A stretch of DNA of 64,000 nucleotides from Thiomicrorhabdus cannonii. GTDB lineage: Bacteria; Pseudomonadota; Gammaproteobacteria; Thiomicrospirales; Thiomicrospiraceae. The translations under genes were made by a program, and so were the position numbers. The notes beneath the pieces were generated by a model, which searched no databases, was not told the DNA's origin, and was given only the letters and a program-made list of their open reading frames with translations. The stretch is taken from positions 62,001 to 126,000 of the forward strand of contig NZ_JACBGH010000003.1 in the NCBI RefSeq assembly GCF_013391695.1, read 5' to 3'. Of the stretch, positions 1,611-62,609 are shown piece by piece; positions within the stretch are counted from its first letter, which is position 1; each line of letters begins with the position of its first letter.

Positions 1611-1640
1611 CAGCAGGCCTACCCGGCCTGCTGAGTTTTT
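1611..1640. repeat. Dispersed CAGGCCGGGT-type repeat (reverse copy) forming a hairpin
   Basis: Positions 1619-1640 match the repeat family in reverse orientation, with the AGCAGG variant. Together with the preceding bases it forms a 9-bp stem (cagcaggcc / ggcctgctg, 1611-1619 and 1625-1633) followed by agttttt on the plus strand. It lies between the OmpA-family gene and the luxR-type gene. Confidence 0.75.
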
Positions 1641-1663
1641 ATCCGCGTAAAAACGCGGGCTTG

Positions 1664-2491
1664 TCAGCGCGCCTCTGCAGGTACTTGCGTGTCAGCTATG
1701 ATCTGCAATTCGATGCGTCGGTTCGCCTGCCGCCCTTCTGCCGTGGCATTGTCGGCGATCGGCGTGGTTTCACCGCGACCCAATACACGAATGGTCACCT
1801 CTTTGAGTGCCGGCAGTTGCTGCAGGAACTGCTTGGTGCTTTCGGCACGCGCCCAGGAAAGTTTCAGATTATGGGCATCGCTGCCGACGCTGTCGGTATG
1901 GCCGGTTACCAGCAGCACTTCGTTTTTCTCAAGGGCATTCAGCGCGGCGGCGTTGCTTTTAAGGGTGTTGATCTGGTCGTCACGGATTTTGGCAGAGTTG
2001 CTGTCAAACACGATATTGCTCAACACAAAAGTGCCCTTTTTGCAGCCGTTTGCATCGACTTCAACGCCGGCGGGGGTGTTGGGGCATTTATCGACCGCAT
2101 TCAATACGCCGTCACGATCGGTATCGTTGTCGATCGCCGGGCATTCGGCCAGGCTTGATGCTTGGCTGCCGTCTTCGCATTGAACCATCACAGGCTGTGG
2201 CGCCTCTTCAATCAACGCACAGCCGTTTTTATCGACGGCTTCCTTTAGACGGCTGTTGGGACAGTGGTCGAGTTCATCGGCAACGCCGTCCTGGTCCAAA
2301 TCCTGGTAGTAGTCTGCGAGTTTGCTGACGTCATCCTCGTATAGCTGGATGATGGCGTAGGGTTTTTCCGTTGCGTTGCCGGCCGCATCGCTGTCGTTCG
2401 GCTGCGCATGGACAAAGGTTGCGGTAAGCAGCAGGCTAAGGCCGATAAAACCGGTTTTCTGCCAGGTGGTGTTGGAGTGAAGAGTTTTCAT
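1664..2491 (-). CDS. OmpA-family outer-membrane/peptidoglycan-associated protein
   Basis: The 275-residue product starts with a signal peptide (hydrophobic LSLLLTATFVHA, cleavage near residue 31). Two thrombospondin type 3-like calcium-binding repeats follow (DLDQDGVADELDHCP and DTDRDGVLNAVDKCP), then a C-terminal OmpA domain with the peptidoglycan-binding signature (TGHTDSVGSDAHNLKLSWAR and NRRIEL near the end). It should be periplasmic and anchor to peptidoglycan. Its start overlaps the end of the TolC gene by four bases, so the two are translated together. TolC, OmpA-domain and LuxR-type genes in this order are commonly found beside type I secretion systems for giant adhesins; the ABC transporter and membrane fusion protein are not in this window. 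Confidence 0.9.
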   Translation of the reverse strand: MKTLHSNTTWQKTGFIGLSLLLTATFVHAQPNDSDAAGNATEKPYAIIQLYEDDVSKLADYYQDLDQDGVADELDHCPNSRLKEAVDKNGCALIEEAPQPVMVQCEDGSQASSLAECPAIDNDTDRDGVLNAVDKCPNTPAGVEVDANGCKKGTFVLSNIVFDSNSAKIRDDQINTLKSNAAALNALEKNEVLLVTGHTDSVGSDAHNLKLSWARAESTKQFLQQLPALKEVTIRVLGRGETTPIADNATAEGRQANRRIELQIIADTQVPAEAR

Positions 2492-3888
2492 TGGTTTTTT
2501 TCCTCTGAATGTTGGGCTTGAGCATCGGGCAGGTTGACCATGTCGAGATGGATGTTCATCTCTTCAAGTAGGGTGCCCATGCCGTTCAGAATGCGGTATT
2601 GCGCCAGACGGTAGTCGGCTTGGCTGGTAACTAGCGTGCGTTGTGCGCTGATGTATTCATCTTCGGTGTTCAGAAGATCCAGCAGGGTTCTGCGTCCCAG
2701 TGTGAATTGTTTGCGGTAGCTCACCAGCGTGTCGTAAGTCAGCTTGATGTGCGACTGGATGTAGTTGAGCTGTTCGCCGATATATTGTTTGGCACCCCAG
2801 GCGTACTGCAGGTTCTCGATCGCCTGACGACGGCTGTTGTTGCGGATTTCAACCGCTTCATGCATGGCACTTGCGGTGCGGGCGCGTTCGGCCTTGTCCT
2901 TGCCGCCGTTATACAGGTTGTAGCGCAGTCTGAGCATGGCTTGAAAGTCTTCGTTACGGCCTTCGATACCCGACAGGTTGTGGTCGTAGGTCTTCTCGAT
3001 TTCCAGGTTGATGGACGGATAGTAGTTGCTGGCCGAAGCGTCGTATTGCGCCTGCGCTTCGCCGATATTGGCGTTGGCCGATTGAATGGTCGGATGTTTT
3101 AGCAACGCCGTGTTGATGGCATCGTCTTTGGTTTGCGGCAAGGCGATATTGGTTTCCGGTGCGACAAGCGCACTGTCGGGCTGGCGTCCGAGAACGCGCT
3201 GAAAACGCGCCAGCATATCGGCGTAATTGTTGCGTGCCGCGGTCAGATTGGATTGTGCCAGAAAGAGACGCGCCTGGGCCTGGTCGACTTCGACCTGATT
3301 GCCGATGCCGGCTTCGCGGCGCTGCGTGATCTGATCGAGGATTCTCTGGTGGGTCAGCACGTTTTCTTCAGAAAGCTTGACCAGATCGCGCTCTTTGAGC
3401 AGATTGATATAGGCTTCCGTCATATCCAGCGCGATTTGGTTGGCCTTGGCGTAGACGTCATAAGCGGCGGCGTCTAAACGGGCGCGCTGGCGTTTGATTT
3501 CGTTTTGCGTGGCAAAGCCTTCAAACAGGTTCTGGGTGAGGCGGATGGCCGATTCGGTGCGCGTCAGGGCTTTGTCGCCGGTGGTATCGGTTACCGTATT
3601 GGCATTTTTGTTTTCAGAATACACTTCTTCATGGCCAATGCCGGCGCTTAAGTCAATGCGCGGATACCAGCCGCCCTCTGCGCCATCCAGTTCGGCTTGA
3701 ATCGCGCGGTAGGCTTTTATTTTCTGACGCAACTCAGGGTTATGCAGGATTGCGTCCTCAACCGTCGGCGTCAACTCGATGGCTTGCGCCGGAAAGCTTA
3801 AGCCGCAAAGCAGAATGCCGGTCAGACCCGCCATATAAAGGTGTTTGAGTCGATGGGGGGCTGTCGTTTGACGAAATAGGGGGCGCAT
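2488..3888 (-). CDS. TolC-family outer-membrane efflux/type I secretion channel
   Basis: The product is 466 residues from the chosen ATG at 3888, which has a strong AAGGAG ribosome site five bases upstream; an in-frame TTG ten codons earlier has none. A signal peptide ends near FPAQA. The rest is the alpha-helical/beta outer-membrane efflux fold in two repeats, including a conserved NLxxG motif in each half (RLTQNLFEGF and LRYNLYNGG). Its length is close to that of TolC/LapE proteins. It is the first gene of the run with the OmpA-family and LuxR-type genes, and probably forms the exit duct of a type I secretion or efflux machine. Confidence 0.92.
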   Translation of the reverse strand: MRPLFRQTTAPHRLKHLYMAGLTGILLCGLSFPAQAIELTPTVEDAILHNPELRQKIKAYRAIQAELDGAEGGWYPRIDLSAGIGHEEVYSENKNANTVTDTTGDKALTRTESAIRLTQNLFEGFATQNEIKRQRARLDAAAYDVYAKANQIALDMTEAYINLLKERDLVKLSEENVLTHQRILDQITQRREAGIGNQVEVDQAQARLFLAQSNLTAARNNYADMLARFQRVLGRQPDSALVAPETNIALPQTKDDAINTALLKHPTIQSANANIGEAQAQYDASASNYYPSINLEIEKTYDHNLSGIEGRNEDFQAMLRLRYNLYNGGKDKAERARTASAMHEAVEIRNNSRRQAIENLQYAWGAKQYIGEQLNYIQSHIKLTYDTLVSYRKQFTLGRRTLLDLLNTEDEYISAQRTLVTSQADYRLAQYRILNGMGTLLEEMNIHLDMVNLPDAQAQHSEEKNQ

Positions 3889-3940
3889 TGAAACTCCTTT
3901 TGAAACAGTGATTTGCAATACCCCTGCAAGCTGAAAAGCA

Positions 3941-3969
3941 GGCGTACTCGATTTTGGTACGCCATTCTA
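3941..3969 (-). promoter_or_regulatory. Possible promoter and leader hairpin of the tolC-ompA-luxR run
   Basis: On the minus strand a TAGAAT -10-like hexamer (3964-3969) is followed at once by the stem ggcgtac / gtacgcc (3957-3963 and 3941-3947). No good -35 box is seen at the proper distance, so the promoter is tentative. Confidence 0.3.
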
Positions 3970-4042
3970 GGCAAGAGTTAGGTAAAGCGACTATCACATT
4001 TTGGCAAATGTGCAATTTATTGCTTGTTTATGGCGGGCGATC

Positions 4043-4729
4043 TTAGCGTTTTAGCGCTTTGACCCATTTCCACAGGTTGAACAGGCTGGAAAGCGAGGCG
4101 GCCACATAGGTCATGGCGCAGGCCCGCAAGATGGCGTGAGCGGATTTCAAATCCTTTTTGGAGAGATATTGCCCCTCTTCCAGAAGCGGCAGGGCGCGCT
4201 TGAAACTGGCGTCAAATTCCACCGGTAAGGTGCTTAAATGGATCATGACTGGCACGCCCATCGCGATAAAGCCGGCGGCAAAGGTCAGCAGGGCGATTAA
4301 GGGGGTGTGTGCCAGCGGAATCAGCAACGGGGTAATCATCAGCGCGATACCGGCAAACTTCTGCATCACGGCAGCGCGTTCGACCAGGGCGGTGCGCTGC
4401 TTGAGCGGCGCATAGTCTTGCCGGTCTTGCAACGCATGACCGATTTCATGGGCCACCGTGGTAATCGCGGTCAGGCTGTTGCTGTGGGCATTGCTACTGG
4501 AAATGCGCACCACTTTTTCGATGGGATCGTAATGGTCGCCCGCGGTGGTTTCCTCAATGCGCACCCCTTTTAAATCGAGTTTTTTGATGAGGTGTTCGCC
4601 AAACTGCAGTCCGCTGCCGGGAATATCGGGATGCGGATGGCTGTGTTTTTGCAGGATATGTCTGGTCCACAGACTCGGCAGCGTGGTCAGAATAAACAAT
4701 AAAATAAAACCGACAAGCAGAATGGCCAT
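4043..4729 (-). CDS. YugP-like zinc metallopeptidase, membrane bound
   Basis: The chosen ATG at 4729 gives 228 residues; a TTG 25 codons upstream is unlikely because it would start next to a dispersed repeat. The protein begins with a membrane segment (MAILLVGFILLFILTTL), has the zinc motif TVAHEIGHALQD (HEIGH), and two to three further hydrophobic stretches in the C-terminal half. This is the pattern of the PF04298 Zn_peptidase_2/YugP family, whose substrates are not well defined. The gene lies downstream of the DUF255 gene on the same strand with 105 bases between them, including a repeat copy. No recognisable ribosome site precedes the ATG. Confidence 0.85.
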   Translation of the reverse strand: MAILLVGFILLFILTTLPSLWTRHILQKHSHPHPDIPGSGLQFGEHLIKKLDLKGVRIEETTAGDHYDPIEKVVRISSSNAHSNSLTAITTVAHEIGHALQDRQDYAPLKQRTALVERAAVMQKFAGIALMITPLLIPLAHTPLIALLTFAAGFIAMGVPVMIHLSTLPVEFDASFKRALPLLEEGQYLSKKDLKSAHAILRACAMTYVAASLSSLFNLWKWVKALKR

Positions 4730-4802
4730 GGTACTAAAGATGTTCAGAAAACTAGGGGGTAGTTTACTGGATTGTGTGATCAAGCCGCAAAAAAGTCGCG
4801 CC

Positions 4803-4825
4803 AAAAACTCAACAGGCCGGGTAGG
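4803..4825 (+). repeat. Dispersed CAGGCCGGGT-type repeat (forward copy)
   Basis: A full copy with A-tract and the AACTCAACAGGCCGGGTAG sequence. It sits 10 bases beyond the stop codon of the DUF255 gene. Read on that gene's strand it ends in a GAGTTTTT run, so it could assist termination, but it has no stem of its own. Confidence 0.8.
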
Positions 4826-4834
4826 TCGTGTTTT

Positions 4835-6586
4835 TTAGGGCGGCGGAGTTTGCAGATAGCTGGCATACGCCAGCGGATTTTGGTGCCAGTCGGGCGGTAA
4901 CAGGAGGTTGGATGATGGTTGCAAGACTTCCAGAATGGCGGTTGGACTGGGGGTGGCGGTATCCGCCAGGGCGAGCTGGCGTTGTTGCCCCAGCAGCAGG
5001 AAGTCGCGGTTGCTTTGCCAGCCGTGTTCGTTGCGGAAATCGTTTTGTAGCCGTTGCTTGATGCGCGCTATCGCCGTCCGGCGTGGCGCCTCGGGCGCGA
5101 TTTGCTGAAGATCATGCAATCCTTGCAGCACATAGGCAAAGTCATCGAGTTGTGCCCATCCGATCGGCTGGCCCTGCGCATCCAGCGCACGCGGGACCTG
5201 CTGGCGTTCAAACAGCGTTAGCAGACGTGCGCTCAAGCGCTCCGCGCTTTGCAAGTAGTGGTTTTTGTCGGTGACACTATAGGCGGTGACATAACTGCTG
5301 AGCAGCAAGCCGTTCCAGCCGGGAATCAGCTTGTTGTCGTGCGGAATCGCCTGCGGTGACTTGGAAAGGCGTTGGCGAATGGTGTCCCAATGGTTCTGTG
5401 TGGGGCGCGGCAGCCAGCCCAGTTCAAATGGCGAGGTGGATTGCAGCCGGTTATGGGCGTTGAATGCGTTGAACAATTCGGTGGGCAATGCGCTTTTGAG
5501 TGCCGGAAGGCTCCACAGATAGGCGCCGCCTTCGCGTCCCTGTGCATCGAGTGCGGACTCACTGCTTTGGAACAGCCCGTTTTGCGGATCGAACAGATGG
5601 CTTTCAAGATAAGTAAGGGTACGTTCTGCGGTTGCCAAGAAATCCGCACGGTGCCAGCGCTGCGCACCCAAAAAATAGAGTCGGGCGAGCTGGGCATTGT
5701 CGTACAGCATTTTCTCAAAATGGGGAATCTGCCATTGCGGATCCACCGTATAGCGGAAGAAACCGCCGTGCACATGGTCCTGGAGATGTTCGTTCTGCAT
5801 CTGTTCGAGAGTCAGTTGCAGCCATTCGTCGAGATCGCCCAAGTCCGTCTGCTGGATAAGCGCCAGCAGCAACGGTGTTTGCGGAAATTTGGAACTGCCT
5901 TGTGACAGGCCGCCGCTTAAGGTGTCCGCGTGGGCGTGCAGGGCGGCATAGAGATGCGTTTTAAAGTCGCTGCGATTAACGGATGATGCGATGGCCGCCT
6001 GGCGGGTGTTGATGGCTTGTGCGGCCAGCTCTTGAATCAAGGGGCGTTGTGTTTGCCAGAGCCGCGTTAATTGAGTAAGGCGGTCTTTAAAGGCGGCATT
6101 GCTTAAGTAACCGAAGGCGGCAAACGGCAAACCCTGGGGAGTGAGCACCACATGCTGCGGCCAGCCGGCACGCCCGGTGGTTTGGCGCGCAAATTCCAGC
6201 AGGTAATTGTCCAGATCGGGATGCAGCTCGCGGTCGAGTTTAACGGCAATAAAGGCCTGATTGACGAGTTCGGCCGCGGCCTGATCCTGATAGTTTTCCT
6301 GCTGCATGACATGGCACCAGTGGCAGGCGAAATAGCCGCTGGAGATCAGGATGGGTTTTTGCTGTTGTTGGGCAAGATGCAGAACGGCTTTCGACCAGTC
6401 GAGCCAGTGAACCGGATCGGCGGCGTGCATCGCCAAATACTGGCTCGGATGGTTTTGTAAAGGCGTGGTTTGCGGAGTGAGGCTGGTATCGGCTGCATAA
6501 CTGCTGGGGCTTGGCAAAAGCCATACAATCCACGGCAAAGCGGCAAGCCATAGCAAACCAGCAAGCGACAGCAAACCGGCTCTCAT
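4835..6586 (-). CDS. Thioredoxin-fold DUF255 (YyaL-like) protein, exported
   Basis: From the ATG at 6586 the protein has 583 residues; this start is preferred because it begins 26 bases after tatC and gives a signal peptide (LLSLAGLLWLAALPWIVWLL, then SSYAADT). Longer starts would overlap tatC by up to 149 bases. After the signal comes a thioredoxin-like DUF255 domain with the characteristic CHWCHVM motif (YFACHWCHVM), HWLDW upstream of it, and then an (alpha/alpha)6-barrel-like C-terminal region (GGLSQGSSKFPQTP, HGGFFRYTVDPQWQIPHFEK). Family members are usually cytoplasmic and about 680 residues; this one is shorter and seems exported to the periplasm, directly behind the Tat genes. The exact reaction is unknown. 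Confidence 0.85.
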   Translation of the reverse strand: MRAGLLSLAGLLWLAALPWIVWLLPSPSSYAADTSLTPQTTPLQNHPSQYLAMHAADPVHWLDWSKAVLHLAQQQQKPILISSGYFACHWCHVMQQENYQDQAAAELVNQAFIAVKLDRELHPDLDNYLLEFARQTTGRAGWPQHVVLTPQGLPFAAFGYLSNAAFKDRLTQLTRLWQTQRPLIQELAAQAINTRQAAIASSVNRSDFKTHLYAALHAHADTLSGGLSQGSSKFPQTPLLLALIQQTDLGDLDEWLQLTLEQMQNEHLQDHVHGGFFRYTVDPQWQIPHFEKMLYDNAQLARLYFLGAQRWHRADFLATAERTLTYLESHLFDPQNGLFQSSESALDAQGREGGAYLWSLPALKSALPTELFNAFNAHNRLQSTSPFELGWLPRPTQNHWDTIRQRLSKSPQAIPHDNKLIPGWNGLLLSSYVTAYSVTDKNHYLQSAERLSARLLTLFERQQVPRALDAQGQPIGWAQLDDFAYVLQGLHDLQQIAPEAPRRTAIARIKQRLQNDFRNEHGWQSNRDFLLLGQQRQLALADTATPSPTAILEVLQPSSNLLLPPDWHQNPLAYASYLQTPPP

Positions 6587-6611
6587 GCTCCGGTTTGCCG
6601 AGTTCGCCGTT

Positions 6612-7709
6612 TTAGGCTTTGTCACCTTTTGCGGAGGTGTCGTTCTGGCCATTGGTTTGCGCTTCCGCCGATTGTGAAGCCTGTGCATCGGTGGTTGTAC
6701 CGTTTGCGGTTGCGTCTGAGGTCGGCGTTTTTTGCGGGTTTTTAGCGTCCTGTTCGGCACGTTGACGTTCGTTGTACTCGCGATCGAGAATGTTCATTTC
6801 ATTATCGATACGGTCAAATTCGGCATCCCAGTCGAGGTCGTCATTGACCTGGTCGGCATAGCGGTCGTCAAACTCGTATTCAGGAGCCTGTGCAGCGCCA
6901 GTGGTTTTGGCATTGGCCGTGTCGGCTGCCTTTTCGTCGGTTTCGTCCTCCGCATCCTCATCGCGAATGCCTTTGCGTTTCAGCACCGTGGCGCCTACCA
7001 GCACGCCAATCTCATACAGAAGCCACATGGGGATGGCGAGCAGGGTTTGCGAGATGATGTCCGGCGGGGTCAGCAACATGCCGATGACAAAGGCGCCGAC
7101 GATAATGTAAGGGCGTGCGTGTGACAGTTTGGCCGGCGTGACCATGCCGGTCAGGATCAACAGCACGGTGACAATCGGCACCTCAAACGCCATGCCGAAG
7201 GCAAAGAACATCTTGATGACAAAGTCCAGATAGAGGGCGATGTCGGTGGCGATGGTGACCCCTTCCGGCGCAGTGGTTGACAGAAAACCGAAAACCAGCG
7301 GGAAGACCACATAATAGGCAAAGGCGCCGCCCGCATAAAACAGGAAGGAGCTGAAGAACAGGATCGGCCCGACCAGCTGGCGTTCGTGCGTATAAAGTGC
7401 CGGAGCGATAAAACGCCACAGTTGGTAGAGCAGAAACGGCATGGCCAGATAGATTGCCAGTACCAAGCTCAATTTGAATGGCGTCAAGAAGGGTGAGGCC
7501 ACGGCCGTGGCGATCATGCTGCTGCCTTCCGGCAGGAAGCGCGTCAGCGGTTCGGAGATGTAGGTGTATATCTCATTCGCAAACGGAAACAAAATCACGA
7601 AGAAGACCAGAATGGCCAGAATACCGCGCGTTAGACTGCTCTTTAAGTCCAACAGGTGCTGCACCAAGGTCATTTCCTGATCATGTGGAGGCAAAGCGGA
7701 GTTGCTCAT
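6612..7709 (-). CDS. tatC: Sec-independent protein translocase TatC, with long acidic tail
   Basis: The multi-spanning subunit of the twin-arginine translocase, which with TatB recognises folded precursors. The first 250 residues have six membrane segments and family motifs (LVQHLLDLKSSLTRGI at the start; SPFLTPFKLSL; PALYTHERQLVGPILFFSS; LLTPPDIISQ). The remaining 110 residues are a soluble tail rich in D, E, A, T and Q that normal TatC proteins of about 250 residues lack. The gene overlaps tatB by four bases. The tail resembles the long tail of TatB next door and may be an acquired low-complexity extension. Confidence 0.97.
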   Translation of the reverse strand: MSNSALPPHDQEMTLVQHLLDLKSSLTRGILAILVFFVILFPFANEIYTYISEPLTRFLPEGSSMIATAVASPFLTPFKLSLVLAIYLAMPFLLYQLWRFIAPALYTHERQLVGPILFFSSFLFYAGGAFAYYVVFPLVFGFLSTTAPEGVTIATDIALYLDFVIKMFFAFGMAFEVPIVTVLLILTGMVTPAKLSHARPYIIVGAFVIGMLLTPPDIISQTLLAIPMWLLYEIGVLVGATVLKRKGIRDEDAEDETDEKAADTANAKTTGAAQAPEYEFDDRYADQVNDDLDWDAEFDRIDNEMNILDREYNERQRAEQDAKNPQKTPTSDATANGTTTDAQASQSAEAQTNGQNDTSAKGDKA

Positions 7710-9172: not shown

Positions 9173-9502
9173 TTATTTTGAGCGGTTGGCTTTTTCTTCA
9201 TGGCCGGATAGGCCGAAGCGTCTTTGTAGTTCTTGCGTGATGTCCTGGCTGGACAGCCCTTGTGAGGCAAGCAGAACGAGGGTGTGAAACCACAGGTCGG
9301 TGATTTCATACACTAAATGAGCTTTATCGCCGTTGTGTTCGAGGTCTTTGGCCGCCATGACGGTTTCCACAGACTCTTCGGCGATTTTTTTCAGAATTTT
9401 TTCCATGCCCTTGGCGTACAGGCTGGCGACATAGGATTGGCTGGGGTCGTCCAGTTTGCGGGCTTCAAGCACCAGGTCGAGTTGTTTGAGAATGTCGCTC
9501 AT
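9173..9502 (-). CDS. hisE: Phosphoribosyl-ATP pyrophosphatase
   Basis: Second step of histidine synthesis: hydrolysis of phosphoribosyl-ATP to phosphoribosyl-AMP. The 109-residue all-helical protein has the MazG-like metal-binding [12 protein letters not shown] and the typical [21 protein letters not shown] start. It overlaps hisF by four bases. In many relatives hisI, the next-step cyclohydrolase, lies between hisF and hisE or is fused to hisE; here it is absent and this protein is only the HisE part. Confidence 0.95.
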
Positions 9503-10272
9503 AGACGCACCTCGATACCTTGTGCCTGCATGGCCTCTTTGGCTTCTTGCACGGTGTATTCTCCAAAATGGAAGATACTGGCGGCCAAGACCGCTTCGGC
9601 GCCGCCTTGTTTGACGCCGTCAACCAGATGCTGCAAGTTGCCGACGCCGCCGGAGGCGATCACCGGGATTTTGACGCGGCGGGTGATTTCATGCATCAGT
9701 TGCAGGTCAAAGCCGCTTTTGGTGCCGTCGCGGTCCATGCTGGTGATCAGCAGTTCGCCGGCGCCCAGCTCTTCCATCTGTTGTGCCCATTCAATGGCGT
9801 CAATGCCGGTCTCTTTGCGGCCGCCGTGGGTGAAGATCTCCCATCTGTCGGCGTCACCCGGCCTGCTGACTTTTTTGGCATCGATGGCAACGACAATGCA
9901 TTGCGAGCCGAAGGTGTCGCAGGCTTCTTTGACAAAACCGGGGTTTACGATAGCGGCCGAGTTGATGGAGACTTTGTCTGCGCCGGCATTGAGCATGCGG
10001 CGGATGTCTTCAAGGCAGCGGATGCCGCCGCCGACGGTCAGCGGAATGAATACCTGGCTGGCCACTTCTTCGACGACATGCACCATGGTGTCACGCTCGT
10101 GGGCGGTGGCGGTGATGTCTAAAAAGGTGATTTCGTCGGCGCCTTGCAGGTCGTAGCGCTTGGCGATTTCGACCGGGTCGCCGGCATCGCGGATGTCGAC
10201 AAACTGCACGCCTTTGACGACGCGGCCGTTATCGACATCCAAACAGGGAATAATGCGTTTCGCTAAACTCAT
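9499..10272 (-). CDS. hisF: Imidazole glycerol phosphate synthase, cyclase subunit
   Basis: The 257-residue TIM-barrel subunit that uses ammonia from HisH to form imidazole glycerol phosphate and AICAR. Family signatures are clear: [20 protein letters not shown] at the N terminus with catalytic aspartate, [18 protein letters not shown], and [12 protein letters not shown] near the end. Nine bases separate it from hisA and it overlaps hisE by four bases. Confidence 0.98.
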
Positions 10273-18121: not shown

Positions 18122-18122
18122 G

Positions 18123-21456: not shown

Positions 21457-21482
21457 AAAAAAACTCAACAGGCCGGGTAGGG
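21457..21482 (+). repeat. Dispersed repeat, forward copy behind ccoS
   Basis: Full copy with a seven-base A-tract and AACTCAACAGGCCGGGTAG, six bases after the ccoS stop and before the shared terminator. Confidence 0.85.
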
Positions 21483-42258: not shown

Positions 42259-42515
42259 GTTGGTTTCCGCTGGAATTAAGGAGTTTGGGAATGCCCTAAA
42301 GTATAAATGCTTATTTTTTTAAATGCTATGGCGCAAGCGAACGAATCGCCGGGTTTTTTGCCCGGGAGTGTCGGGCGGCGATATGTGGCGGCAATATCGG
42401 GCGGCAAGTTCGTCTCAATGGCGCCAGGTAATTGTTATAATAAGCGATTTTAAACAGCCGGGTGTCGCGCAAGCCTTTGCAAACAAGGCGGTGGCCTCAT
42501 GTAGTTGGAACGTCT

Positions 42516-45113: not shown

Positions 45114-45986
45114 ATGGTCGAACAAACGGCTCTGGCCATCACCCCGGATGTGGAGGGGGCGGCCAAACCCAGTAAAAAAGAGCGCACCAAAGACTGGATT
45201 ATTCCGCCCAAGGCGATTATGAAGCCGGTGGGTCGTGCCATGGCGCAGTTCGGTATGCTGCGCGACGGCGACCGCGTATTGCTGGGGTTGTCAGGCGGCA
45301 AGGATTCGCTGGCGTTGCTGGTGATTCTGAAGCATCTGCAGCGTCATGCGCCGATCAAGTTCGAGTTGGCCGCCTGCACCATCGATCCGGAAATCCCCGG
45401 TTTCGATCCGTCCCCGCTGAAGGAGTGGGTCGCCAAGCTGGGCGTGCCCTATTTTTATGAAGCCGAAGACCTGGTGGCGCTCGCCAACCAGCATATGAAA
45501 GGCGACTCCTTCTGCAGTTTCTGCGCGCGTCAGAAGCGCGGCAAACTCTACACCGTGTGCCGCCGCGAAGGCTATAATGTCCTGGCCTTGGCGCAGCATC
45601 TCGACGATCTGGCGGAAAGTTTCATTATGTCGGCTTTCAATGCCGGTCAGCTGCGCACCATGAAAGCGCATTACCTCAACGACGACGGCGATATCCGCAT
45701 TATCCGTCCGCTGGTGCGGGTGCGCGAGAATCAGACGCGCGATTTCGCCAAGGCCGCCAACCTGCCGGTCATTCCCGACAACTGCCCGGCCTGTTATGCC
45801 AAGCCGCAGGCGCGCGCCGAAACCAAGGCGCTGCTGCTAGAGCAGGAGAAAAAGAACAAACATCTTTATGCCAATCTGTGGACGGCGATGCAGCCGCTGA
45901 TTGCCGACGATAATCATGCCGGTCTGGCGCATCTTACCGCAGAGGATTCAGTGGATGACGCGGCCACCGAGGAGAAGATCGGGTGA
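45114..45986 (+). CDS. ttcA: tRNA 2-thiocytidine synthase TtcA
   Basis: A 290-residue PP-loop ATPase: VLLGLSGGKDSLALL is the loop, FCSFCARQKRGKLY the CxxC, and DNCPACYAKP the third-cysteine region that together hold the iron-sulfur cluster. It thiolates C32 of tRNA. The first 45 residues are variable. It overlaps the acyltransferase gene by four bases. It lies next to other tRNA and RNA modification genes only loosely (trmA). Confidence 0.94.
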   Translation: MVEQTALAITPDVEGAAKPSKKERTKDWIIPPKAIMKPVGRAMAQFGMLRDGDRVLLGLSGGKDSLALLVILKHLQRHAPIKFELAACTIDPEIPGFDPSPLKEWVAKLGVPYFYEAEDLVALANQHMKGDSFCSFCARQKRGKLYTVCRREGYNVLALAQHLDDLAESFIMSAFNAGQLRTMKAHYLNDDGDIRIIRPLVRVRENQTRDFAKAANLPVIPDNCPACYAKPQARAETKALLLEQEKKNKHLYANLWTAMQPLIADDNHAGLAHLTAEDSVDDAATEEKIG

Positions 45987-46927
45987 GCAGCGTGCGCCAA
46001 AAAACCGCCAAAAAATCTCAACAGGCCGGGTGGGGCGACCGCATCAAGGGTGCGTTGCTGATTGGTCTGGTGCGTTTTCTGGGCTGGCTGCCGCTGTCGC
46101 TTAACCGCCTGTTGGGGCGTTTTATCGGGCGCCTGCTGTGGTGGATTCCCAATAGCAATAAAAAGGTGACCGAACGCAATATTCAGGCAGCGTTTCCGCA
46201 GTTGAATCCGACTGAGCAGCGTCAATTAAGCCGCGAAAGTCTGTTGCAACTGGGCATGGCCACCGCCGAGCTGGGGCCGATGTGGTGCTGGTCGGCAGAC
46301 AAATTGATGCCGTTGGTCAAAGAGGTCAAGGGACAAGCATTGTTGGACGCCGCCATTGCCGAAGGGCGCGGTGTGATTTTTCTGGGGCCGCATATCGGTG
46401 CCTGGGAGTTGGTGGGCAACTGGCTGGCGCTGCATTATCCGCTGACCGCCATGTACCGTCCGCCCAATATCGCCAGTGTGGAAGGTTTTATGCTCGATTC
46501 GCGCAACCGTTTCGGCGGGCACTATATTCCCGCCGAGCTGCGCGGCGTGCGCGAGATTATCAAAGCCCTCAAGCACAGCGGCGTGACCGGTATTCTGCCC
46601 GACCAGGATCCGGGCGATAACGGCGGCGTCTATGCGCCGTTTTTCGGGCGTCCGGCGCGCACCATGACATTGGTGGCCAAACTGCTGCAAAAGGCGCAGT
46701 GTGCCTGTCTGTTGGTGATGGCGGAGCGTCTGCCGGGGACGGAGGGGTTCCGATTGCATTTTCTGCCGGCAGAGGCCGATATCGCGTCCGACGATGATGT
46801 GGTGGCTGCGGCCGCGCTTAACCGCGGGGTGGAAGCGTGCGTGCAGATCGCTCCGGCCCAGTATTTGTGGGCCTACAAACGCTACCGCAAACCGCCGGCC
46901 GGAATCGACGATATTTACAAGGCCTGA
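45983..46927 (+). CDS. LpxL/HtrB-family lipid A acyltransferase, bracketed by repeats
   Basis: The 314-residue protein has a membrane helix near residues 22-50 and the acyltransferase motif H-x4-E in LGPHIGAWELVGNW, then GILPDQDPGDNGGVYAPFFG typical for late acyltransferases of lipid A. It adds a secondary acyl chain to lipopolysaccharide at the inner membrane. The start is a GTG at 45983 overlapping ttcA, with GGAG upstream. The first residues SSVRQKTAKKSQQAGWGD contain the product of a dispersed repeat, and the stop codon lies in a reverse copy, so the gene is bracketed by an inverted pair. Confidence 0.93.
   Translation: MSSVRQKTAKKSQQAGWGDRIKGALLIGLVRFLGWLPLSLNRLLGRFIGRLLWWIPNSNKKVTERNIQAAFPQLNPTEQRQLSRESLLQLGMATAELGPMWCWSADKLMPLVKEVKGQALLDAAIAEGRGVIFLGPHIGAWELVGNWLALHYPLTAMYRPPNIASVEGFMLDSRNRFGGHYIPAELRGVREIIKALKHSGVTGILPDQDPGDNGGVYAPFFGRPARTMTLVAKLLQKAQCACLLVMAERLPGTEGFRLHFLPAEADIASDDDVVAAAALNRGVEACVQIAPAQYLWAYKRYRKPPAGIDDIYKA
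46011..46033 (+). repeat. Dispersed repeat at the 5' end of the acyltransferase gene
   Basis: AATCTCAACAGGCCGGGTGG with A-tract, coding for K-S-Q-Q-A-G-W, in the same reading frame as the copy in ccoS. Confidence 0.8.
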
Positions 46928-46970
46928 CCCGGCCTGTTCACTTTTCTGACGCGCATTTTGCGCGTTTTTT
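46927..46970 (+). terminator. Reverse repeat copy followed by an intrinsic terminator
   Basis: 46927-46945 is the reverse repeat (ACCCGGCCTGTTCACTTTT), overlapping the stop codon. Four bases later acgcgca / tgcgcgt (46949-46955, 46959-46965) forms a stem with six T. Confidence 0.8.
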
Positions 46971-54702: not shown

Positions 54703-56030
54703 TAGACGTCCTTTTCCAGCAGGCAGTAGAAGAAACCGTCCATGCCGTGTTCGCCGGGCAGAATCTGGCGGCCGGGCGTGGTAAATGTCATGCCCCACTG
54801 TGCGTCAATCGGCACCACCCTGGCGTCGGCATGCTGTGCGACAAAATCGGCCATCTGCAGGGTGTTTTCCTGCGGCAGCACCGAACAGGTCGCGTAAAGC
54901 AGCCGCCCGCCCGGTTTTAACAGCGGCCAGAGCGCTTTGAGAATCGCCGCTTGGGTTTCAACCAACTGTTCGATGTCTTCTTCGGTGCGGTGCCATTTGA
55001 TGTCCGGGTGGCGGCGGATAATGCCGGTGGCTGAACAGGGGGCGTCGAGCAGGATTTTGTCGAACAGTTGACCATCCCACCACGTATCGGGTTCGGCCGC
55101 GTCGCCGGCGGCGTAGTCCGCGGTCAGCTCCAAACGGTGCAGGTTTTCGGCGAGACGTTCCAGGCGTTCCGGCTCTTTTTCCAAGGCAAACACCTGTGCC
55201 TGATTGCCGCTCAACTCCAGCAGATGCGTGGTTTTGCCGCCGGGCGCGGCGCAGGCGTCGAGAATGCGTTCCTTCGCTTGCGGCTCAAGCAGGTAAGCGG
55301 CCTGCTGCGCGGCCGGATCCTGCACGCTGAAAGCGCCTTCCTCAAAACCGGGCAGTTGGCTGATATCGGTGCTTTTTTGCAGCACAATGCCTTGCGCTGC
55401 CTGCGGATGCGCGCTGGCCTCAATCTCCTGCGCCTGCAAGGTCTGCAAATAAACGTCGCGTGACTGCACCAGCGGATTGACGCGCAAAGTCAAAGGCGCG
55501 GGTTCGTTATTGGCTTGCAGCATCGCCTCCCACTGCTCGGGATAGGCTTTGCGCAAGACGCGCACCAGCCACTGCGGATGGGAATGTTTATGCGCCGGTT
55601 TAACATCCACCGCTTCACAAAGAGTGTCCTTATCGCGCAGGAAATTCCGTAACACGCCGTTGACCAGCGCTTTGGCCCAGGGTTTTTTGAGGTTTTGGGT
55701 GACCGCTACGGTTTCGGAAACGGCGGCGTGTTCCGGCACATCCATATACAGAATCTGGTAGAGGCCAAGCAGAATGAGCTGGTTGACGTCCTCGTCCTTG
55801 GCTTTAAGGGCTTTTTTGAGGAGCTGCTCGCGGATGGCTTCCAGACGTGCCTGCCAACGCAGGGTGCCGAGTACCAGGTTCTGGGTGAAGGCGCGCTCGC
55901 GGCGGTCGTCAAACTGCGCCAAACCTTCCGGCAGCACTTGGCTGAGCGAACGGCCGTTTTCGATGACGTTGAGGCACATCTTTAACGCAATGTAACGACT
56001 GTTCTGGGGACTATTGAGTGGTTTGCTCAT
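54702..56030 (-). CDS. rsmB: 16S rRNA m5C967 methyltransferase
   Basis: The 442-residue protein has an N-terminal NusB-like RNA-binding domain and a C-terminal SAM domain: DACAAPGGKTTHLLEL, DAPCSATGIIRRHPDIK and YATCSVLPQEN, with both catalytic cysteines (in PC and TC motifs). It overlaps fmt by four bases and DUF4390 by one base. Confidence 0.97.
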   Translation of the reverse strand: MSKPLNSPQNSRYIALKMCLNVIENGRSLSQVLPEGLAQFDDRRERAFTQNLVLGTLRWQARLEAIREQLLKKALKAKDEDVNQLILLGLYQILYMDVPEHAAVSETVAVTQNLKKPWAKALVNGVLRNFLRDKDTLCEAVDVKPAHKHSHPQWLVRVLRKAYPEQWEAMLQANNEPAPLTLRVNPLVQSRDVYLQTLQAQEIEASAHPQAAQGIVLQKSTDISQLPGFEEGAFSVQDPAAQQAAYLLEPQAKERILDACAAPGGKTTHLLELSGNQAQVFALEKEPERLERLAENLHRLELTADYAAGDAAEPDTWWDGQLFDKILLDAPCSATGIIRRHPDIKWHRTEEDIEQLVETQAAILKALWPLLKPGGRLLYATCSVLPQENTLQMADFVAQHADARVVPIDAQWGMTFTTPGRQILPGEHGMDGFFYCLLEKDV

Positions 56031-56971
56031 GCGAATGAATGCCCGAGCAGTTGACGCGATTGCGCAAAATCATAAGCGGCCATCGGCTTCTTGCCGGCCG
56101 GCTGCAGTTGCGTGACCCAAATGGGGGTGCTGCCGGTGCCGATGAGAATCCCCTGTTTTTCCACGGCCAGTACCCGGCCTGCTGAGTTTTCGGAAGCGGT
56201 TTTTTCGGCCGCGATCTGCGCGCCGAGAATGCGCAAAGGTTGGTCTTGGAAATCGGTATAAGCCATCGGCCATGGGTTAAAGGCGTGGATTTTACGCACA
56301 ATGGTTTCCGCCGGCTCGCTCCAGTGGATTTCGGCTTCGGCTTTGTTGAGTTTTTCGGCATAGGTGACGAGGCTGTCGTCCTGTTTTTGCGCCTGTTGCT
56401 GCAGGTTTTCGAGGTCTGAAAGGGTCGCCATCAGCGCTTCGGCGCCGAGCGTGCTTAAGCGGTCGTGCAGGCTTTGGGCGCTGTCATCGGCGGCAATCGG
56501 CGTGGTGACTTTGTAGAGCATGTCGCCGGTATCGAGCCCGACATCCATCTGCATAATGGTGACGCCGCTTTCGGCGTCGCCGGCTTCGATGGCGCGCTGA
56601 ATCGGTGCGGCACCGCGCCAGCGCGGCAGTAGCGAGGCGTGGATGTTCAAGCAGCCGTAGATTGGCATCTCCAACACGGCTTTGGGCAGAATCAGGCCGT
56701 AAGCCACCACAATCATCAAATCGGCATTGAGGGCGGCCAGTTCGGCCTGGGCGTGTTCGTTGCGCAAGGTTTCCGGTTGAAAGACCGGGATATTATGTTG
56801 CAGCGCGACTTCCTTGACCGGACTGGCGGTGAGTTTGCGGCCGCGTCCGGCGGGGCGGTCGGGCTGGGTGTAAACGGCCACCACGTCATGCGGTGAATCC
56901 AGCAGCGCCTTTAGGGGGGCGACGGAAAAGTCCGGCGTGCCGGCAAACACAATGCGTAAACTGGGTTTCAT
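56027..56971 (-). CDS. fmt: Methionyl-tRNA formyltransferase
   Basis: From the ATG at 56971 the protein has 314 residues, as in E. coli. Motifs: IVFAGTPDFSVAPLKALL, YTQPDRPAGRGRKL, HASLLPRWRGAAPIQRAI and MQMDVGLDTGDML. It formylates initiator Met-tRNA. A dispersed repeat in reverse lies within the gene at 56171-56190, in the linker before the C-terminal domain, coding ENSAGRVLAV. The gene lies eight bases after def. Confidence 0.97.
   Translation of the reverse strand: MKPSLRIVFAGTPDFSVAPLKALLDSPHDVVAVYTQPDRPAGRGRKLTASPVKEVALQHNIPVFQPETLRNEHAQAELAALNADLMIVVAYGLILPKAVLEMPIYGCLNIHASLLPRWRGAAPIQRAIEAGDAESGVTIMQMDVGLDTGDMLYKVTTPIAADDSAQSLHDRLSTLGAEALMATLSDLENLQQQAQKQDDSLVTYAEKLNKAEAEIHWSEPAETIVRKIHAFNPWPMAYTDFQDQPLRILGAQIAAEKTASENSAGRVLAVEKQGILIGTGSTPIWVTQLQPAGKKPMAAYDFAQSRQLLGHSFA
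56171..56190 (-). repeat. Dispersed repeat inside fmt
   Basis: Reverse copy TACCCGGCCTGCTGAGTTTT (AGCAGG variant), read on the coding strand in a different frame from the ccoS and acyltransferase copies (N-S-A-G-R-V). Confidence 0.8.
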
Positions 56972-56979
56972 GCTCACTC

Positions 56980-57489: not shown

Positions 57490-57537
57490 GGTGTCGTTTA
57501 TACTTAGGTGATTCCAATCCATATATTATAGCCGACT

Positions 57538-58653
57538 ATGTCCCGTTTTTACGAATTAGCCGATCTGCTGGCGCTGCACCTGAATTTCTTTTCGCTGAAG
57601 CAGTTGCAGCAGGCGGAATCTTACTTTGGCAGTCTGGCGGCGGCATTGCAGGCGGGCGAGTCGGTCTGGCGGGGTACGGGGATTGCCACCGATAAGCAGT
57701 TGCAAGGTTTGTTTGCGGACGATCTGAAGGCCAGAATCGACGCCTCGCTGGCCTGGCAGGGCGCACAGCAGCATTGGGTCGGCTGGCAGGATGAGGATTA
57801 CCCGCCGTTGCTGGCGCAGATTGACGATGCGCCTATTTTATTGGGCGTGCGTGGGCGGGTGGAGTTGTTGCGTGATCCGCAGGTGGCGATTGTCGGTTCG
57901 CGCCATGCCTCCAAGGCCGGGGTGAATGCGGCGGAGGATTTTGCCGAATTTCTCTCCTCGCAAGGCATTACCGTGACCAGCGGCTTGGCGCTGGGAATCG
58001 ATGCGGCGGCGCACCGCGGCGCTTTGCGCGGTTTGGGCAAAACCGTGGCGGTGGTGGCGACCGGCTTGGATCGCATCTATCCGGCGGCCAACAAGGCGTT
58101 GGCGCACCAGATTGTCGAAGAGGGCGCGATGGTGTCGGAGTTTCCGCTGGGCACCAAACCGCTGAACTACAACTTCCCAAAACGTAACCGGATTATCAGC
58201 GGTTTGAGTGTGGGCACCTTGGTGGTGGAGGCGGCATTGCAGAGCGGTTCGCTGATTACCGCCAAAATGGCGGCCGAGCAGGGGCGCGAGGTGTTTGCGG
58301 TGCCGGGGTCGATTCACAATCCGCAGGCCAAAGGCTGCCATCAGCTGATCAAACAGGGCGCCAAACTGGTGGAGAGCGGCGAGGATGTGCTGGTGGAGCT
58401 CGCGCCCGTGTTGCAGGGATTCTGGCCAAAGCGGCAGGCAAACGAACAGGCCGGTTCTCAAGCGCCCGCCGAACCGGTGAAAGCCGCTAAAGAAGGGTTG
58501 CTGGCGTTTATCGAATACGAGCCGATCGGTCTCGATGAGTTGGTGGTGGTGAGCAAGTGGCCGGTGTCCGCCATTCAAAGCGAGTTGCTGCTGCTGGAGC
58601 TTTCCGGTGCAATCGAAGCCTTGTCGGCCGGACGCTATCGCCGTTTGCGCTAG
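57538..58653 (+). CDS. dprA: DNA-processing protein DprA (Smf)
   Basis: The 371-residue protein has a SAM-like N-terminal domain, the Rossmann-fold core with VAIVGSRHASKAGV, TSGLALGIDAAAHRGAL, FPKRNRIISGLS, and a C-terminal winged-helix-like domain. DprA loads RecA on incoming single strands in natural transformation. An expanded linker (NEQAGSQAPAEP) contains a near-match to the dispersed repeat. It is divergent from def, as in many gammaproteobacteria. Confidence 0.95.
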   Translation: MSRFYELADLLALHLNFFSLKQLQQAESYFGSLAAALQAGESVWRGTGIATDKQLQGLFADDLKARIDASLAWQGAQQHWVGWQDEDYPPLLAQIDDAPILLGVRGRVELLRDPQVAIVGSRHASKAGVNAAEDFAEFLSSQGITVTSGLALGIDAAAHRGALRGLGKTVAVVATGLDRIYPAANKALAHQIVEEGAMVSEFPLGTKPLNYNFPKRNRIISGLSVGTLVVEAALQSGSLITAKMAAEQGREVFAVPGSIHNPQAKGCHQLIKQGAKLVESGEDVLVELAPVLQGFWPKRQANEQAGSQAPAEPVKAAKEGLLAFIEYEPIGLDELVVVSKWPVSAIQSELLLLELSGAIEALSAGRYRRLR

Positions 58654-58665
58654 CTGGCGGATTTT

Positions 58666-59784: not shown

Positions 59785-62268
59785 ATGACAAATTTGGTGA
59801 TTGTGGAGTCGCCCGCCAAGGCAAAGACGATCGAAAAGTATCTCGGCAAGGATTTTACGGTGCGTTCCAGTTACGGCCATATCCGTGATATTCAGAAAAA
59901 AGGCATGGGCATCGATCTGCAGAACGGCTTCGAGCCGCAGTATGAGGTTTCCGCCGACAAGAAGAAAAACGTCACCGAACTGAAAAAGCTCACCAAAACC
60001 GCCGAGACGGTCTGGCTGGCAACGGACGAGGACCGCGAGGGGGAGGCGATTGCCTGGCACCTTGCGGAAGCCCTGAATCTGGATATTAAAACCACCAAAC
60101 GCATCGTCTTTCACGAGATCACCAAGCCGGCCATTCAGGCGGCAATTGCCGCACCGCGCACCGTCGATATGGATCTGGTCAACGCCCAGCAGGCGCGCCG
60201 CATTCTCGACCGGATTGTCGGTTTTGAACTCTCGCCGATTTTGTGGAAAAAAATCCGCACCGGATTGTCAGCAGGCCGGGTACAGTCGGTCGCCGTGCGC
60301 CTGATTGTCGAGCGCGAGCGCGAAATCGATGCCTTTGAATCGAGTTATGTGTTCCGGGTACAGGGATTGTTGCAGTTGCTGGATGCCGCCGGCAAGCCCA
60401 CCGGTAATCTGGAGGTCAAACGCACCGCCACGTTTGAGACCGAAGCCGAAGCGCAGGCGTTTCTGGAGGCGGTCGCCCAAGCCAATCTGAGCGTGATGTC
60501 GCTGGAGGAAAAACCCGCCAAGCGCAGTCCGAAGGCACCGTTCACCACCTCGACGCTGCAGCAGGAAGCCGCCTCCAAACTCGGTTTTTCGGTCAAGCAG
60601 ACCATGACGATTGCGCAGCGTTTGTACGAGTCCGGCAAGATCACCTATATGCGTACCGACTCGGTCAACCTGTCGGAGCTGGCGATCGCCCAGGCCAAAG
60701 AGGTGATTTCCAAAGAATATGGCGCCGACTACAGTCATCCGCGCCGCTACAAAACCAAACAGGCCGATGCGCAGGAAGCGCACGAGGCGATCCGTCCGAC
60801 CGATTTTGGCATGAAAGACATTACCGGCGAGCGCAACGAGCAGCGTTTGTATCAGTTGATCTGGCGTCGCGCGCTGGCGTCGCAGATGAGTGATGCGACC
60901 CTGATGCGCACCACGGTGGAGATTGCCATCGACAATCTGCCGGGCGACAAATTCACCGCCAAAGGCGAAGTGGTCACCTTTGAAGGTTTCTTGAAAGCCT
61001 ATGATCTGGACGACGACGCCGAAGGCGGTTTGCTGCCGCCGATGCATATCGGTCAGGCGTTGCAGGTGGCGGAACTGAGCGCGCGTCAGAGTTACAGCCG
61101 TCCGCCGGCGCGTTACAACGAGGCGAGTCTGGTGCGTACCTTGGAAGAGATGGGCATCGGCCGTCCTTCGACCTATGCGCCGACCATCGACACGGTTCAG
61201 CAGCGCGGCTATGTGGTCAAGGAAGACCGCGAAGGCAAACCGCGCGATTACCGCTTGCTGACCTTGCAGGACGGCCAAGTTTCCGCAGAAACCCTCACAG
61301 AGATGGCTGGCAGCGAGAAGAACAAGTTGTTCCCGACTGACATCGCCGGGATTGTCACCAATTTCCTGACCAAGCATTTCGATGATGTGGTCGATTACCA
61401 GTTCACCGCCAAGGTCGAGGACAAGTTCGACCAGATCGCGCAGGGCAAGGTCGAGTGGCGCGCCATGCTGGACGAATTCTACCGTCATTTCCATCCGCGT
61501 GTCGAAGCGGCCGAGGATGTGTCGCGCGAGGAGGCCGGCCAGGCGCGTCTGTTGGGATCGCATCCGGAAAACGGCAAGCCGATGTATGTCAAAATCGGCC
61601 GTTTCGGGCCTTATGTGCAGATCGGCGACGGCGAAAACGACGAGAAGCCGGTCTTCGCCAGTCTGATGCCGGGGCAGAAAATGGACGTGATTTCGCTGGA
61701 CGAGGCGCTGGAGTTGTTCAAGCTGCCGCGCGATGTCGGCGAAATCCCCGAAGATTTCAGCGCCACGGCGGTGGACGGCACGGTGTTTGGCGTCAAGAAA
61801 GGCCAGAAAATCATGGCCAAGCAGGGGCCTTTCGGGCCTTATCTGGAATACGGGCCGAAACAGTATGCGCCGATCAAGGGCTTCGACCCGATCAGCATTC
61901 CGCTGGAAGATGCGGTGGCGTTGATCGAGGCCAAAATTCAGGCGGATGCGGAGAAGATCGTCAAGACCTTCCCGGGCACCAATGTGCAGATTCTCAAAGG
62001 ACGCTGGGGGCCGTACATTACCGATCTGGTGACCAAGAAAAACGCCAAAATCGCCAAGGACGAAGATGCGCTGGCGCTGAGTCTGGAGGAGTGTGAGAAG
62101 CGTCTTGAGGAAGCGCCGGAGCCGAAAAAACGCGGCCGTGCGGCCGCGAAAAAACCGGCGGTGAAGGACGCGGAACCTAAAAAGGCGGCGGCCAAAAAAA
62201 CCACAGCCAAGAAGGCGCCGGCCAAAAAGGCCGCCGCTAAAACCACGCGCAAGAAGGCGGCTGAGTAA
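59785..62268 (+). CDS. topA: DNA topoisomerase I
   Basis: The 827-residue type IA enzyme relaxes negative supercoils. Toprim domain: LVIVESPAKAKTIEKYLG and ATDEDREGEAIAWHL; catalytic tyrosine in GKITYMRTDSVNLS; RPSTYAPTIDTVQ. Instead of zinc fingers, the C terminus has two topo-C repeats (KIGRFGPYVQIGDG, AKQGPFGPYLEYGP, KGRWGPYITDL) and a lysine/alanine tail of about 65 residues. The segment coding for the universally conserved SAGRVQSVAVR includes a full core of the dispersed repeat (60268-60283). Confidence 0.97.
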   Translation: MTNLVIVESPAKAKTIEKYLGKDFTVRSSYGHIRDIQKKGMGIDLQNGFEPQYEVSADKKKNVTELKKLTKTAETVWLATDEDREGEAIAWHLAEALNLDIKTTKRIVFHEITKPAIQAAIAAPRTVDMDLVNAQQARRILDRIVGFELSPILWKKIRTGLSAGRVQSVAVRLIVEREREIDAFESSYVFRVQGLLQLLDAAGKPTGNLEVKRTATFETEAEAQAFLEAVAQANLSVMSLEEKPAKRSPKAPFTTSTLQQEAASKLGFSVKQTMTIAQRLYESGKITYMRTDSVNLSELAIAQAKEVISKEYGADYSHPRRYKTKQADAQEAHEAIRPTDFGMKDITGERNEQRLYQLIWRRALASQMSDATLMRTTVEIAIDNLPGDKFTAKGEVVTFEGFLKAYDLDDDAEGGLLPPMHIGQALQVAELSARQSYSRPPARYNEASLVRTLEEMGIGRPSTYAPTIDTVQQRGYVVKEDREGKPRDYRLLTLQDGQVSAETLTEMAGSEKNKLFPTDIAGIVTNFLTKHFDDVVDYQFTAKVEDKFDQIAQGKVEWRAMLDEFYRHFHPRVEAAEDVSREEAGQARLLGSHPENGKPMYVKIGRFGPYVQIGDGENDEKPVFASLMPGQKMDVISLDEALELFKLPRDVGEIPEDFSATAVDGTVFGVKKGQKIMAKQGPFGPYLEYGPKQYAPIKGFDPISIPLEDAVALIEAKIQADAEKIVKTFPGTNVQILKGRWGPYITDLVTKKNAKIAKDEDALALSLEECEKRLEEAPEPKKRGRAAAKKPAVKDAEPKKAAAKKTTAKKAPAKKAAAKTTRKKAAE
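60268..60283 (+). repeat. Core of the dispersed repeat inside topA
   Basis: TCAGCAGGCCGGGTAC, identical to the fmt variant over 16 bases and in the same reading frame (S-A-G-R-V). The protein motif here is under strong constraint, so this copy may be shared by coincidence or favoured by codon choice. Confidence 0.6.
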
Positions 62269-62609
62269 GTTGTAAAGCCGGTCGCAAAGAACGTCAAAAA
62301 CAGCGCTTAAAAAACTGAACAGGCCGGGTAGGAGAGTGCTTCTACCCGGCCTGTTCAGTTTTTAGGGTATGTAAATTTTGTGATTGTTATAAATAGACTT
62401 TACACCCAGTAAATATTCTTGAGGACGGGTAGGGGTGCCCTTTCTTTTCGCCTCTTTTCTTTGGGCAAGCAAAGAAAAGGGGCATCTCAAGGTATTCACA
62501 ATTTCTATTTTGGATGCTTTTGACTGCTTGAGAAAAATATAAATTGTGGACAAAACCATCACAAAATTTATATACCCAATTTTTAAAACCTTAAAATCGG
62601 CCAGGCGTT
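62269..62609. repeat. Intergenic region behind topA: repeat pair and second hairpin
   Basis: A 341-base stretch without genes between the converging topA and PAS-GGDEF genes. 62310-62331 and 62342-62363 are two full dispersed repeats in inverted orientation, giving a perfect 22-bp stem with a ten-base loop and a T-run: the topA terminator. A further stem, cctcttttcttt / aaagaaaagg, lies at 62450-62479 in a sequence resembling pyrimidine-rich extragenic repeats seen in many proteobacteria. The remaining bases show nothing I can support. Confidence 0.85.
62310..62363. terminator. topA terminator made of an inverted pair of dispersed repeats
   Basis: Arms AAAACTGAACAGGCCGGGTA and its complement, loop ggagagtgct, then TTTT. 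The same use of paired uptake sequences as terminators is well known in Neisseria. Confidence 0.85.

Follow-up and report, generated by a model that had tools for sequence, protein, structure and literature searches.

The 64,000-nt window analysed here (G000 C3:62001-126000, where G000 is the strain's own genome; position 1 is the first letter of the window) carries a short dispersed repeat that is probably a third, independently evolved uptake-sequence system, located in the Thiomicrospiraceae, a family of marine sulfur oxidizers. The topA gene of the window is closest to Thiomicrorhabdus, so the host is a Thiomicrorhabdus-like member of that family. PMC12616744 names the Neisseriaceae and Pasteurellaceae as the only families known to have such a code, and searches confined to open-licence papers turned up no report of one for the Thiomicrospiraceae. 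The window contains 16 exact copies of the 10-base core CAGGCCGGGT, versus 0.15 expected from 100 dinucleotide shuffles. The preliminary description of this DNA had recognized the repeat family, which is real, but listed 12 copies, missing those at 9856, 37449, 39858 and 42898. Across the 2,493,962 bases of the genome (59 contigs) the core occurs 596 times, above the 300-450 copies estimated earlier, while the reversed control occurs 0 + 2 times. The two strands are represented almost equally over all contigs (288 and 308). The same description had likened the repeat to the DNA uptake sequence (DUS) and the uptake signal sequence (USS), and had named near-chance counts outside the window, lack of conservation at the same loci in relatives, and transposon copies as grounds for giving this up. 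None of these was found, and an uptake signal is the reading that the sequence pattern supports; from that pattern we infer binding, uptake and a receptor.

Sites were aligned from 464 kb of the own genome (the window together with 400 kb from contig C1; n=95). The aligned element, which we call dialect D, reads ACCCGGCCTG-TT-(G/C)-A-G-TTTT and, with the first core base as 0, has further T-rich stretches at 29-32 and, less marked, at 40-42. The T-tracts centre near positions 17, 30 and 41. T frequency peaks at 87%, 58% and 41% in the first, second and third tracts, respectively, compared to a background of about 23%. About 20 bases are well conserved and the T-tracts beyond them are degenerate. 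On the strand opposite to CAGGCCGGGT the repeat reads ACCCGGCCTGTTGAGTTTTT, and additional T-tracts follow at intervals of about 13 and 11 bases. The A-tract extension and AGCAGG variant were as reported before, the A-tracts being these T-tracts on the opposite strand; the phasing of the tracts is an addition, as are the dialects and palindromic relatives below. The 19-base form ACCCGGCCTGTTGAGTTTT is found with two or fewer mismatches at 12 of the 16 window copies, with the copies at 37449, 39858, 42898 and 60272 matching poorly (3-7 mismatches). Similar to dialect D, the Pasteurellaceae USS (AAGTGCGGT / ACAAGCGGT) has an asymmetric core with AT-rich segments on one side about a helical turn apart. 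In the USS, according to PMC1626085, two AT segments follow the core and the second is centred 12 positions past the first.

We also determined where the sites lie, using open reading frames (ORFs) from a simple custom ORF caller (about 83% of the DNA coding). Of the 95 sites, 55 are between ORFs, 23 of these between converging ORFs, and 40 are within ORFs. In the window half of the copies (8 of 16) fall in ORFs, where four coding regions had been noted previously. Seven close pairs are spaced 20-24 bases apart and every one is inverted. The inter-ORF enrichment and the strong folding of the inverted pairs (mean z -9.1), which form the hairpin of an intrinsic terminator, are what one would expect if the repeat were an intrinsic transcription terminator or derived from one. 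Single sites form no such hairpin, their folding being no stronger than that of shuffled sequences (mean z -0.39 for sites between ORFs and about 0 for those within). Their orientation relative to facing gene 3' ends is near even, 25 with and 21 against. The T-tracts are also kept at the sites within ORFs, most clearly at the 28 antisense sites, where both tracts are AT-rich (0.83 and 0.79) and the spacer is not (0.41). Terminators are therefore largely refuted for single sites and are a highly improbable explanation of the family.

The many near-identical copies could instead mark a dispersed mobile element such as a miniature inverted-repeat transposable element, a repetitive extragenic palindrome or a transposon end. 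Orthologue alignments were available for 18 of the 40 intragenic sites, and 57 of the 71 alignments are gap-free at the site, suggesting that most copies originate from base substitutions, frequently where conservation is poor, and not as transposon copies. Only about 20 bases are well conserved before the degenerate T-tracts, an 18-mer of the repeat matches only three stretches in IMG/VR, and the prophage of the own strain is poorer, not richer, in copies. A mobile origin is accordingly scarcely credible. Gene junctions that carry a site tend to carry one in relatives too, though in another dialect. When orthologous spacers of G000 were compared with those in stretches of two genomes of dialect B, the B core was present in 11 of the 29 spacers that have a D site and in 11 of the 94 that do not (odds ratio 4.6 and P 0.004 by Fisher's test); the two genomes used for comparison are not independent of each other. 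A smaller earlier comparison gave 4 of 6 versus 1 of 9. Behind topA, the D pair is matched by counterparts in ZW0627, in T. chilensis and in a metagenome-assembled genome of dialect C; none was seen by exact core behind topA of zzn3.

To what extent do relatives carry the repeat? Among 57 related genomes CAGGCCGGGT is frequent in only one, a sister species in the same genus (346 copies), with 31 or fewer in the others. The word CAGGCCTG reaches 236-1173 copies in 18 of the 37 family genomes (the own genome among the 37), and the remaining 19 have no more than 74. Together 21 of the 37 encode this or a related dialect, 18 by CAGGCCTG plus those with dialect D (G000, G004) and dialect E (G023). 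Bearers include T. chilensis, sp. zzn3, ZW0627, Milos-T2, Hydrogenovibrio SC-1, H. halophilus and Thiomicrospira WB1; T. marina, T. heinhorstiae and 6S3-12 are non-bearers. The dialects were read in fetched stretches of part of the bearing genomes. Dialect A is ACCAGGCCTGGT, B is (T)GAACAGGCCTGTTCA, C is AGCAGGCCTGCTGA and E is ACCGGCCGGT. Dialect F, CCCAACCTGG(C/T)AGATTTT, is from Hydrogenovibrio JE_KL2, outside the 37 family genomes, where CCCAACCTG occurs 13 times in 54 kb versus 0.62 expected and the extension is present at 11 of the 13. Two other words are repeated in JE_KL2 (L035, L220, L221), GGGGTAAGGC (7) and GTAAGGCGAGA (6). CCTG is common to dialects A, B, C, D and F; in E it is CCGG, and in F the GGCC is disrupted. 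A T triplet is present on both arms in dialects A, B, C and E, roughly as far from the centre as in D, though not at every site, and only the first T segment stands out in these palindromic dialects.

The half-site GGCCNGNNNANTTT, constructed from this arrangement, separates bearing from other genomes, with 740 copies in G008 (control 16) and 240 in G033 (control 6) but 44 or fewer in non-bearing family members. Separation is weak in G006 (32 versus 10) and G035 (37 versus 22). In the genomes of other families counts do not exceed 45, mostly with similar controls, and the largest ratios there rest on small numbers (G038, 17 versus 5; G052, 13 versus 3). Scanning 47-100 kb each of seven genomes without the GGCC-type motif revealed no uptake-like word. 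For nine more (G001, G012, G017, G022, G026, G028, G029, G032 and G034) the scan covered no more than 20 kb, or nothing, and further dialects may have escaped notice in these genomes. The first 100 kb of G020 (L073, L113-L116) has the palindrome TTCACGTGAA, with 14 counts over both strands, which are probably parS sites. Repeats in G024 were rejected as an uptake-like word as they are located in repeated gene contexts, presumably those of an IS66-type element.

In a topA tree of 20 rows, with support at some forks below 95, dialect D is in a clade with three species of dialect B (95/94) and is nested inside B with moderate support (88/88). Dialect A is on both main branches (100/99 each). A motif-free clade of T. 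marina, 6S3-12 and ZodW_Metabat.390 branches early in Thiomicrorhabdus. The dialects thus track phylogeny around a constant inner core, with E and F as exceptions. Phylogeny-following dialects with a constant inner core are also known for the Neisseriaceae DUS (e.g. AT-GCCGTCTGAA and its dialects), as are inverted terminator pairs (PMC3630211). The DUS inner core, CTG, is contained in the CCTG of dialects A, B, C, D and F, which is probably a coincidence. The window repeat is not the DUS 12-mer or one of its dialects, and its 596 copies compare with about 1,500-5,900 in the Neisseriaceae in that same paper. Flanking T-tracts also set it apart, as DUS are without flanking motifs according to PMC1626085. 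With the USS the repeat has in common a strong consensus, subclade dialects, inverted pairs and intragenic copies, as PMC1626085 and PMC12616744 describe them. The cores differ, GGCCTG or CCTG here (ACCCGGCCTG / CAGGCCTG / CCCAACCTG) and GCGG inside a 9-base core in the USS; four of the six Thiomicrospiraceae dialects are palindromes, and the host is from another gammaproteobacterial family. The repeat is neither DUS nor USS by descent.

The 10-mer core has the strong consensus of an uptake sequence. The D 10-mer is found 95 times exactly versus 1.5 expected and 72 times with one mismatch versus 40.5 expected, an excess of 32 mostly at positions 1-2. For dialect A, about 320 kb of G030 contain 190 exact sites and a one-mismatch excess of 64, nearly all at outer bases. 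A surplus of perfect cores is typical of USS and DUS, unlike ordinary regulatory sites, according to PMC1626085.

Four dialects (A, B, C and E) are palindromic around a central GGCC, and with them the best rival explanation has to be weighed. The repeat could be a highly iterated palindrome (HIP) like HIP1 of cyanobacteria, kept by a cognate DNA methyltransferase or by mismatch repair, with the dialects as alternate HIPs. HIP1 and the alternate HIPs are likewise over-represented, short, GC-rich palindromes that are replaced by other palindromes in some relatives, and PMC4390886 mentions a GGCC methyltransferase in Anabaena. The same paper states that one-base deviations in HIP1 are mostly at outer bases, as in dialect A. 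Unlike HIP1, dialect D, the window's own, is not palindromic as a whole, with only CCGG and GGCC inside, and dialect F CCCAACCTG is without a palindromic centre. A HIP, which we consider unlikely, would also leave the inverted pairs and the phased T-tracts beyond the core unexplained.

Symmetric sites would suit a dimeric protein as well, and the repeat might be bound by a nucleoid or chromosome-segregation protein. Proteins of this type include SlmA, Noc, MatP and FtsK. The lack of strand bias in G000 (288 versus 308) is not in favor of this, and neither are the hundreds of copies, the strong consensus and the species-specific dialects. The sites are evenly spread round the G030 chromosome, and the 16 places sampled show no ori-ter gradient, with 11, 8, 7, 8, 10, 9, 11, 2, 7, 12, 11, 4, 9, 9, 6 and 9 copies of CAGGCCTG per 20 kb. 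A nucleoid or segregation role is very unlikely.

An uptake sequence would be expected to be under-represented in acquired DNA, as the preliminary description had noted, and it is. Among 46 windows of G000 the most tetranucleotide-atypical fifth has 0.80 sites per 10 kb and the others 2.33 (rho -0.58 between site density and compositional atypicality). A Mu-like prophage in G000 has 2 sites versus 7.8 expected (P 0.016).

Several observations count against an uptake code, however, some concerning the sites and others the uptake machinery. The low density in atypical windows is partly confounded with G+C (rho +0.56). The GGCC-centred palindromes of four of the six dialects are unlike DUS or USS. 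By our own rule a T-tract is absent at 37 of 95 G005 sites and at 20 of 50 pooled dialect-A sites; G035 is without a clear T-tract, and G036 has flanks of reverse polarity, TTTTGACC...GGTCAAAA. The 12 sense intragenic sites in G000 have weaker T-tracts (AT 0.70 and 0.65). The consensus is also less clear for longer or other words. The D 12-mer CCCGGCCTGTTG has 56 exact copies and a one-mismatch excess of 57, which is even, and for the dialect-B 9-mer one-mismatch copies outnumber exact ones (exact versus one-mismatch, 78 versus 121 and 53 versus 108). That surplus is nearly all at the first base, because this base is free.

On the side of the machinery, ComEC was matched in 33 of the 37 family genomes (not G004, G006, G029 or G031) and ComEA in 32 at E <=0.001, some under the curated cut-off. 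Both proteins are present in genomes with and without the motif. G004 and G006, which bear the motif, have no ComEC match; both genomes are fragmented. In the own strain comEC is split, with its C-terminal part at C1:50.6-51.4 kb and its N-terminal part at C1:88.0-89.8 kb. Between them, at C1:51.4-88.0 kb (L011-L013), is the contractile-tailed Mu-like prophage, recognized by a Mu transposase and, among 10 ORFs scanned, terminase, portal, head, tail sheath and tape measure. With its comEC split by the prophage, the own strain may have lost transformation recently, in which case its kin would maintain the uptake code. G005, G025 and G020 have an undivided comEC; the genomes of the motif-bearing T. 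chilensis DSM 12352 (dialect B) and T. sp. zzn3 have the gene undivided. Canonical PilQ was above cut-off in none of the 37 family genomes. G000 does encode an MSHA-like pilus operon with a secretin, an MshE-type ATPase and T2SSF (L127, L128). It also has a pseudopilin cluster that we take to be a type II secretion system (T2SS) and a locus that from its gene order is presumably Tad-like.

The ComP-like receptor sought following the preliminary description did not appear, as a search limited to G000 gave no ComP_DUS (PF16732) match at E up to 1, a further difference from the Neisseriaceae. In addition, a lone pilin-like gene described below is not seen at its expected place in G009 and is absent between its flanking genes in the motif-bearing G018, as it is in the motif-free G020.

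Which protein could read the repeat? The receptor is not proven for the USS, and here there is a candidate only. The number of pilin-like genes was rejected as a signal, as it does not cleanly separate bearing from non-bearing genomes. A pilin cluster, N (G000 C1:439-444 kb), is in G000, G005, G025 and G018 but also in the motif-free G024, and it was not seen in G030. The lone type IV pilin-like gene is between a xerC-like gene and hslV in G000 (L106:6636-7175, C1:647 kb), G005 and G025, and elsewhere in G030. It is full length in these four; G021 has a 23-residue N-terminal match at a fragment edge. By the N_methyl model the lone gene is found in four of five bearing and none of five non-bearing genomes (P 0.048), in a comparison of 10 genomes chosen after the motif counts, with G021 and G009 not counted and a very weak isolated G031 hit (60-residue frame) set aside. 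The protein matched no specific family, only N-terminal pilin models and two weak, chance-like others. Its C-terminal half is strongly conserved and its first half more variable. The soluble part is basic in G000 (isoelectric point 8.0, versus 4.1-4.6 for the other non-T2SS pilins there) and acidic in G005 (5.4), G025 (5.6) and G030 (4.6). We regard the lone pilin beside hslV as a candidate receptor and as a lead only. Two other clusters (L103:14270-19100 and L105:10263-13998) encode large pilin-like proteins of 258-500 aa with a CPDxDxDGxE-type stretch in common, the first interleaved with a kinase-like and a response-regulator gene.

Within the window, dialect-D sites with an exact 19-mer are at 4804-4822 (minus strand, between ORFs 4043-4804 and 4835-6760), 21353-21371 (minus, within the small ORF 21185-21451), 21460-21478 (minus, between converging ORFs) and 31062-31080 (plus, between ORFs). 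Sites with one mismatch are found between ORFs at 1621-1639 (plus) and 27952-27970 (minus), within a lipid A acyltransferase-like gene (45983-46927) at 46013-46031 (minus), and within a formyltransferase gene (56027-56977) at 56172-56190 (plus). Two more form the left (62311-62329, minus) and right (62344-62362, plus) arms of the inverted pair behind topA (62320/62344), which is as described before; such pairs fold as hairpins. Two mismatches are present at 9856-9874 (plus, within ORF 9499-10272) and at 46927-46945 (plus, at the stop codon of the acyltransferase-like gene). The core is accompanied by a weak extension at 39849-39867 (minus, three mismatches), within the B12-dependent methionine synthase gene, and at 60263-60281 (minus, five mismatches), within topA. 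The core alone is at 37440-37458 (minus, seven mismatches), also in the methionine synthase gene, and at 42898-42916 (plus, five mismatches), within ORF 42462-43610; both are probably incidental. The gene for DprA, the DNA processing protein of natural transformation, is present as previously noted, at 57538-58653 on the plus strand (PF02481, E 8.5e-79; PF17782). On the same strand topA (59785-62268) is the basis for the genome placement and for the cross-species comparison of the downstream site. The window also codes for four GGDEF or EAL proteins (27975-30116, 31079-33712, 41011-42258 and 62610-63986).

How might such a code work? A surface receptor would bind GGCCTG together with a T-tract about 10-12 bases from the site centre, leading competent cells to favor DNA like their own. 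As tagged DNA is taken up and recombined, the tags could spread across the genome by molecular drive. Tags would accumulate most where the sequence is free to change, at gene junctions and in unconserved stretches of proteins. If the specificity of the receptor drifted, the tags would follow and dialects would result. More tentatively, and with some doubt on our part, the repeat may be a self-DNA code of marine chemolithoautotrophs with an ancestral palindrome read either way, whose symmetry was lost in one lineage, with convergence on the Haemophilus USS layout of a half-site plus phased T-tracts. Its reader might be a pilin-like receptor, perhaps the lone pilin next to hslV, working with a pilus apparatus that has no canonical PilQ.

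If the repeat is an uptake code, a third and free-living family has one, and such codes would evolve repeatedly, also outside animal hosts. Six dialects, motif-free species and an apparent change from palindrome to half-site in one clade would provide a natural series for following the co-change of receptor and genome. Such a series could address which protein reads the sequence, a question still open for the USS.

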